The notes under the pieces: model-generated
What the model was told of the DNA's origin: nothing
Database searches by the model: none
The model's input: the letters and a program-made list of their open reading frames with translations, nothing else
Made by a program: the position numbers and the translations under genes
In this document: in pieces, positions 32,220 to 34,164 of the stretch
Numbering within the stretch: the first letter of the stretch is position 1
Layout: each line of letters begins with the position of its first letter
Source: Aphelenchoides besseyi
Lineage: Eukaryota; Nematoda; Chromadorea; Rhabditida; Aphelenchoididae
Direction: 5' to 3'
Assembly: GCA_024699855.1 (NCBI GenBank)
Contig: JAMPIQ010000002.1
Location: 6,820,001 to 6,884,000 of the forward strand
Length of the DNA stretch: 64,000 bases

Positions 32220-34164
32220 TTAGTAGTCACTTTCTTCCAAATCACTCGGCGGATTACTGTCGATTCCAACTTCCTCATAGTCTTTTTCCAAAGCTGCCAA
32301 ATCTTCACGAGCTTCCGAAAACTCGCCTTCTTCCATTCCCTCACCCACGTACCTACAAAGAGTCGACAATCTCACGTCAAACTTACTTACCAGTGAACAA
32401 AAGCTCGTTTCGCGTACATCAAATCGAATTTATGGTCCAGACGAGCCCATGCTTCTGCAATTGCTGTTGTGTTCGAGAGCATACAAACAGCACGTTGCAA
32501 TTTAGCCAAATCGCCTCCGGGCACAACAGTTGGCGGTTGATAGTTGATTCCAACTTTGAAACCGGTTGGACACCAATCGACAAATTGGATTGTTCGTCGC
32601 GTTTTAATTTGCGCAATTGAAGCATTAACGTCTTTGGGCACTACATCGCCACGAAACAACAAACAACAGGCCATGTATTTGCCGTGTCGAGGATCACATT
32701 TGACCTTAAAAAATTTATATGAATAAGTCGCCTATCACTTGCCATTTGCGCATCCGGTTCAAAACATTGTTGCGTGATTTCGGACACGCTCATTTGCTCA
32801 TGGTACGCCTTTTCGGCAGAGATGATCGGAGCATAAGTCGTAAGAGGAAAATGAATGCGTGGATAGGGAACCAAATTAGTTTGGAACTCTGTAAGATCAA
32901 CGTTCAAGGCTCCGTCAAAGCGCAGTGAAGCAGTGATGGACGAAATCACCTGAAGTTCAATTTGGATAATAAAAAAAGAGATCATGTAACCTGTGCAATT
33001 AAACGATTCAAATTTGTATAAGTGGGTCGTGCAAGATCGAGATTCTTACGACAAATATCGTAGATCGCTTCATTGTCGACCATAAACGAGCAATCACTGT
33101 GCTCAAGAGTAGTGTGCGTGGTGAGGATCGAATTGTAGGGTTCGACGACTGCCGTGGAAATCTAAAACACAAGATTATAACCAATAGACAAAATCGATAG
33201 TTACCAATGGAGAAGGATACACACAGAACTCTAACTTCTGAAAATAGATTGTTTAATTGGAGTGATCGTTTTCAATCGATCAAAGAAAAGTTGAGTAATA
33301 GATGTCTGCGTTCGAATACGGGAATAAGCGAACCGCAAGTAAACTTACGCTTTTCTTTCCATAATCAGCACTTAGACGTTCCATTAACAAAGCAGTGAAA
33401 CCTAAATGCTGCTGTTAATTAATGGTCTCTAAGCGAAACATGTCTACCCGAACCAGTGCCACCACCAAAACTGTGAAAGATCAAGAAACCCTGAATATGA
33501 AACGTAAGTTTGTTTTACAATTGACATTTCACTTGTAATCCACGACAGTTGTCAGCTAGACGACGAATTCGACTATAAATGAACAATTAAAAGAGAATAT
33601 GCAGAAGAACATACTCCATACAAACATCAATAATCTCCTTTCCGATTGTGTAATGACCACGAGCATAGTTGTTCGCTGCGTCTTCTTTTCCAGTAAGTAG
33701 TTGTTGTGGATGAAAGAGACGAAAAATAAGCAAATTACAATTATTCTCAAATCTTTTTTCAAGCAAACTTCTTTGGAACTTTAACTTACTGTCTATAGGT
33801 ACCTGTACGTATTTCGTCGACAGGTGTTGGTTCAAGATCAATCATAATGGCTCTGGGCACATGCTTTCCAGCTGAAGTCTCCGAGAAGAACGTGTTGAAG
33901 GAATCGTCTTCATAGCCGGTTGTCGAGTCACTTGGCATGCGACCATCAGGCTGAAACAACGAAAAGTTAAAAATACTCATCGATTGTCAAGATCATTAGT
34001 TGAAATCGATTTTATAACCTGAATTCCGTGCTCCAAACAATACAATTCCCAACAGGCGTTGCCAATTTGTACTCCCGCTTGACCGACGTGAATGGAAATC
34101 ACTTCGCGCTGCAAAGTTCATTACAACGTTTTTAACGCGTTAAACTCACAGATCGGGTGGACAT
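32220..34164 (-). CDS. Alpha-tubulin, divergent isotype
   Basis: The first coding exon is five codons (MSTRS, 34150-34164), followed by [20 protein letters not shown]. All landmarks are present: [20 protein letters not shown] (GTP loop), [23 protein letters not shown], and [19 protein letters not shown]. The acidic tail ends in Tyr (DLEESDY), so it can enter the detyrosination cycle. The acetylatable K40 is replaced: the loop reads [12 protein letters not shown] where PSDKT is usual. Two introns are non-standard. One after EPDAQM starts with GC (ATG|GCAAGT). Intron 33720-33789 has a good GT donor, but the exon resuming at LFHPQQL is preceded by TTTTTCG and not by an AG. If that site is dead the gene is a very recent pseudogene. 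Confidence 0.88.

Follow-up and report, generated by a model that had tools for sequence, protein, structure and literature searches.

Candidate 3' splice sites with C or G in place of A at -2 in short introns of the nematode Aphelenchoides besseyi

Introduction

Splicing that does not depend on a 3' AG was reportedly described in mutants of Caenorhabditis elegans by Aroian and colleagues in 1993.

Four later papers, in the portions available to us, cite that 1993 study for the statement that C. elegans mutants can splice without the AG (PMC10946897, PMC4991786, PMC4290612, PMC7593179). The precedents given in the accessible text of two of them are changes at position -1, to AA or AC (PMC10946897, PMC4991786), and for one AG mutant the cDNAs were mostly mis-spliced, with a few correct (PMC4991786). 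At normal C. elegans 3' sites, according to the available part of another paper, the AG is perfectly conserved, the U at -5 is critical for U2AF binding, and U2AF is proposed to serve mainly to position the branch point (PMC4889670). Vertebrates have TG 3' splice sites; in the part of the source at hand, the human ones are said to occur solely where they compete with an AG close by (Szafranski et al., 2007; PMC2374985). In the root-knot nematode Meloidogyne graminicola, gene prediction gave 5.34% non-canonical sites, with TT-AG and GC-AG as the classes named in the accessible text (PMC7593179). Among the titles on Aphelenchoides splice sites and nematode non-canonical introns in the journals covered, which were a partial set, none concerned non-AG acceptors.

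Here we examine introns of Aphelenchoides besseyi that appear to end in CG or GG. They resemble the C. elegans case in their short nematode introns, U-rich 3' tract, a host whose usual acceptor is UUUUCAG/R-like, and AG-less candidate site, and differ from it in that the C. elegans changes are laboratory mutations at -1 (AA or AC), whereas here the change is natural, affects -2, keeps the G at -1 and recurs in several genes. With the vertebrate TG sites, as far as the available description goes, they share a U2-type acceptor in which -2 is not A while -1 remains G. Those sites, however, are described there as never the sole acceptor and as having a functional AG within ~28 nt, while here -2 is C or G and no well-scoring in-frame AG lies nearby, except at the RCE1 TTCCTCAG (26-nt intron). 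M. graminicola is likewise a plant-parasitic nematode with non-GT-AG introns, and its TT-AG class has a candidate counterpart here (L029, below); its named classes nevertheless retain the 3' AG, the remainder being unspecified in the accessible text.

Results

The A. besseyi assembly comprises 47.39 Mb in 31 contigs, the largest being C1 (18.14 Mb), C2 (17.78 Mb) and C3 (9.97 Mb). A purpose-written gene finder was trained on the window, by which we mean the whole 64,000-nucleotide stretch under analysis, together with 20 blocks of 10 kb. In these it called 403 AG introns with a median length of 43 nt and a nematode-like acceptor consensus, TTTYAG, which serve below as the canonical reference. 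For each window donor, in-frame AG alternatives were listed as far as the end of the next exon.

The alpha-tubulin gene of the window (32220..34164, minus strand; PF00091 and PF03953) has 11 introns and a full-length open frame of 454 residues if one non-AG join is used. Ten of the 11 introns end in AG; the sole exception, at 33720..33789 on the minus strand, is 70 nt long and reads CA|GTAAGT...TTATTTTTCG|TCTCTT, with CG at the acceptor. Both the sequence and the coordinates thus bear out the original prediction of a perfect donor paired with a non-AG end. The join is gapless in the single alignment shown, to one PDB alpha-tubulin. That protein has Gln at the junction, where the window gene has His; the three other alpha-tubulins of the genome have Arg, Asn and Ser, so the residue is variable there. 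The further claim that no AG in the preceding 60 bases gives a frame-compatible tubulin was too strong as worded, since in-frame AGs would give introns of 22 and 37 nt, although every one of the 403 canonical acceptors outscores them; the 37-nt option ends GAAAAAAG and adds 11 residues. The one alternative donor listed was rejected because it leads, by eye, into an in-frame TAA. The same gene also contains a GC-AG intron (window 32705-32742, minus strand).

Three more minus-strand genes of the window had been said to show such ends. They were located by scanning that strand for T-runs followed by CG or GG and reading the flanks, and all three hold up. The first is a globin-domain gene (34636..35617, minus strand; PF00042), whose ends were set by eye and which the gene finder places at 34613-35728 with extra introns. 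Its 40-nt intron at 35243..35282 (minus strand) runs GTAAAC...TTCTTTTGG and has GG at the acceptor (TTTTGG). The resulting join, WKQ|VMKTINDDE, shows no gap in any of the eight homologues aligned, out of 28 matches. The in-frame AG options here are introns of 67 nt, at a cost of nine residues, and 292 nt, at a cost of 84, and neither scores as high as the lowest of the 403 canonical acceptors.

The second is an RCE1-like CAAX protease gene (15139..16084, minus strand; PF02517) with three introns and a full-length open frame of 270 residues if the non-AG join is used; another in-frame ATG lies nine bases upstream of its start. The intron at 15598..15641 (minus strand) is 44 nt long, GTAAGG...TTCGTTTTCG, with acceptor CG (TTTTCG), and the join IVV|APFTEEL is uninterrupted in the homologue P0001. 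One in-frame AG, TTCCTCAG, lies 18 nt upstream and would give a 26-nt intron and six additional residues, the shortest of the 403 canonical introns being 33 nt; the other lies 134 nt from the donor and has an ordinary acceptor (50th percentile), and its use would delete 30 residues including FTEELAFRG. Homologue searches gave no match named A. besseyi either for this protein (two matches among 658 candidates) or for the globin (28 matches among 351 candidates), even though the database holds A. besseyi proteins; this would fit broken gene models, and other causes are possible.

The third gene is protease-like, with a GDSG motif (13260..14087, minus strand; 229 residues, three introns). Pfam gave it no match at 0.001, and PF13365 is present in two of five homologues. 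Its intron at 13845..13892 (minus strand) is 48 nt long, GTTTGT...AACTTTTCGG, with acceptor GG (TTTTCGG). An annotated A. besseyi protein, M3Y98_00186000 (P0031), equals our protein at every residue save for a single gap of 16 residues. These are exactly the 16 that follow the non-AG join, and P0031 resumes past TTTTCGAG, the next in-frame AG. The 16 residues are conserved in an aligned paralogue (P0034) and, by eye, in a Caenorhabditis protein (P0032). That AG corresponds to a 96-nt intron and scores at the 2nd percentile, and four longer options score worse. The P0031 record apparently derives from another assembly, and we infer that the AG is lacking there too.

Outside the window, a different chromosome carries a fifth case, in a second alpha-tubulin gene (L026, C1:634714-638085) that has a long open frame, its last intron placed by eye. 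The intron at L026 2622-2662 (C1:637335-637375) is 41 nt long, GAAA|GTAAGT...AAATGTTTGTGG|GATGTGAAC, with acceptor GG (TTTGTGG), and its removal joins VVPK to DVNSAIA, the same reading as in other alpha-tubulins. Each of the in-frame AGs listed for it loses at least 10 residues. Its donor scores 6.7 and its T-tract is weak, at 1.2 against a 25th percentile of 1.7. A third alpha-tubulin (L029, C1:10687798-10691136) has a 45-nt TT-AG candidate intron starting at position 1334, CCA|TTAAGT...GATTTTAG|GAACAG, which restores LFHP|EQLITG; the alternative with an in-frame GT donor would be a 30-nt intron. All six introns of the fourth alpha-tubulin gene (C1, 11.965 Mb) end in AG.

Open in-frame AG choices are thus available at all four window sites and in L026, and one could suppose that a nearby canonical AG is used instead, the proteins carrying small insertions or deletions. 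The P0031 model, annotated with the AG route, and the ordinary AG of the RCE1-like gene both speak for this. On the other hand, the tubulin and globin AGs fall below every canonical acceptor and that of the protease-like gene at the 2nd percentile, and each AG route alters a conserved protein: 11 residues added in the tubulin, nine lost in the globin, six added or 30 lost in RCE1, 16 lost in the protease-like protein and at least 10 lost in L026. We therefore regard this explanation as unlikely.

The genes might instead be freshly broken, with splicing abolished in young pseudogenes or null alleles. A non-canonical intron occurs in three of the four alpha-tubulin genes, and redundant copies could decay; moreover, the window sites are grouped. 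They form two pairs of neighbouring genes, all on the minus strand between 13800 and 36000, an arrangement seen in 0.12% of random draws of four from 131 introns, in a post hoc comparison. Yet the coding paths of all five genes are free of stops and frameshifts, and the intact RCE1 frame matches its best homologue, from Aphelenchoides fujianensis, at 62% identity across 98% of the query. We hold decay of this kind to be rather improbable.

All five sites still carry the G at -1 and the T at -5, and only the A at -2 is changed (CG in tubulin, GG in globin, CG in RCE1, GG in the protease-like gene and GG in L026). Among the six non-canonical sites accepted, the departure is at -2 in five, at +1 in one (the L029 TT-AG candidate) and at -1 in none, a bias to be read with the fact that four of those five were the original prediction's own selection. 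In the window four, the cut fixed by homology follows a T-rich tract and leaves introns of usual length (40, 44, 48 and 70 nt). Among the 403 canonical introns their tracts rank at the 85th (tubulin), 97th (globin), 80th (RCE1) and 53rd (protease-like) percentile, and their donors at the 88th, 46th, 15th (a weak one) and 67th, respectively. The introns accordingly look like U2-type GT-AG introns in their GTRAGT-like donors and pyrimidine-rich tracts (weak in L026), the 3' AG alone being absent. Donors of U12-type introns are ATATCCTT or GTATCCTT, and, read directly, the donors here are neither.

Assembly or sequencing errors that deleted or changed the A could also produce such sites, and the window four do all lie on one strand. 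Errors would not, however, single out one splice-site base while sparing the frames, and finder paths, which are unable to cross in-frame stops, traverse all nine chaperonin regions. In addition, P0031, apparently from another assembly, skips the same piece, as would be expected, if indirectly, were the AG absent there. Errors are therefore a very improbable source.

Acceptors of this kind are rare. A tally of 3' splice dinucleotides in two gene families gave AG at 63 of 63 chaperonin introns (nine genes; 64 called, 62 AG as called, one corrected to AG by eye, one dropped as coding) and at 51 of 51 beta-tubulin introns. The latter come from five loci, with one intron corrected, two past a gene's end set aside and one gene called in two pieces; another tubulin locus with nine called introns is excluded. 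The tally agrees with sporadic use and speaks against a general habit. Two odd beta-tubulin calls were rejected, a GG call in T11751, for which the intron ends in a canonical TTTAG lying six bases upstream, and a CG call in T6b located past the gene's end, as were calls at the first intron of L041, which is canonical, and at L043 1787-1830, which is coding.

With any terminal dinucleotide allowed at a penalty of 0.02, the finder called 407 introns, 396 AG and 11 non-AG, of which two were accepted (tubulin and globin) and nine rejected. Rejected finder proposals were those at window + 42525, L004 + 4812 and - 6410, L005 8137, L008 7503, L016 7314, L006 3328 and 3684, the former only through a canonical intron at 3319-3364, and L010 8767, which falls in a retroelement-like ORF. 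That ORF (L010 6155-9427) is long and, by eye, polyprotein-like, with its frame disturbed near 8800. Odd donors in L001 and L006 were rejected too, canonical alternatives being available; L001 3615-5115 is an EF-1-alpha gene whose first exons the finder missed, and may be a 5'-truncated copy. At looser settings the finder proposed 23 NG acceptors among 416 introns, and at the mirror setting 17 AN among 408, inspection being confined to the proposals named here as accepted or rejected; the finder thus has a noise floor, and homology alone decides.

In the 20 other blocks, with 280 AG introns, no non-AG proposal survived inspection, a figure that understates the frequency of such sites, because the finder overlooked two of the four window cases. 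These two, the RCE1 and protease-like joins, escaped it at every setting tried and were found by scan and eye, so similar genes elsewhere will have been overlooked too. Counting finder-detected cases only, the window has two among 125 introns as opposed to none among 343 (280 + 63; Fisher p = 0.07), and the 95% upper bound on the latter is 0.87%. A strict homology-free scan picked up just 33 AG introns, with neither CG nor GG among the ends, and is too insensitive to carry weight. Across the whole genome on both strands, GTAAGT-N26..36-TTTTSG occurs 377 times (backward control, 504) and its N46..56 version 484 times (533), hence without excess; the comparison motif TTTTSC gives 464 (533) and 412 (477), respectively, and TTTTAG at N26..36 gives 2238 (303). 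Since TTTTSG shows no excess at the intron-end distance, NG ends can make up no more than a small fraction of acceptors.

Discussion

We think it likely, judging from sequence and homology, that these are ordinary short U2-type introns in which a non-A at -2 is sporadically tolerated, a naturally occurring form of the splicing without AG that C. elegans mutants show; the CG and GG sites are accordingly best called candidate acceptors. Tolerance of a non-A at -2 after a strong T-run had been offered as one of three readings, and its core agrees best with the data: the reading frames are undamaged, the change is limited to -2, a case occurs elsewhere in the genome and P0031 steps over the site. 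Gene decay or errors of assembly would be expected to affect -1, donors and frames as well, and both fit worse. Two parts of that reading need amending, in that the phenomenon is rare and not a genome-wide habit, and a strong T-run may be dispensable, since the L026 tract is weak. This weak tract, the weak RCE1 donor and the missing whole-genome TTTTSG excess count as evidence against tolerance, as do the uniformly AG chaperonin introns, the failure of the proposals from the 20 other blocks, and C. elegans precedents that involve -1 and in one mutant gave mostly mis-spliced cDNAs. Tolerance also does not explain the clustering in two gene pairs on one strand.

Mechanistically, a U-rich tract with consensus TTTYAG marks nematode 3' splice sites, and at a few of them the A at -2 would have become C or G; for the CG sites, loss of one A from a CAG is another conceivable origin. 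U2AF would still locate the tract and place the branch point, and exons would still be ligated behind the -1 G. In the exon-ligation complex, this G makes contact with the intron's first G. If so, the CG or GG site would stay a working acceptor and the change might be nearly neutral.

A bolder proposal, which we put forward tentatively and consider possible though rather doubtful, is that the check on the -2 A at exon ligation has been relaxed in the Aphelenchoides lineage, so that CG and GG would serve as sole constitutive acceptors (tubulin, RCE1), perhaps via a second, intronless U2AF35-like gene, and that AG-only annotation silently truncates or drops genes. A search with the human protein as query finds an ordinary, multi-exon U2AF35 (C1:10311992-10312643, plus strand; 63 to 77% identity in pieces). 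It also finds another U2AF35-like locus (C1:3001069-3001590, minus strand; 47% identity) that is a single intronless frame without stops, perhaps a retrocopy or else a factor that has diverged.

Few bases of eukaryotic genes are as strongly conserved as the A at -2 of the 3' splice site. Natural sole acceptors that lack it, if true, would reveal a dispensable part of AG recognition in an animal and would offer ready test substrates. For this parasite group, annotation that insists on AG would lose pieces of gene models, as P0031 appears to show.
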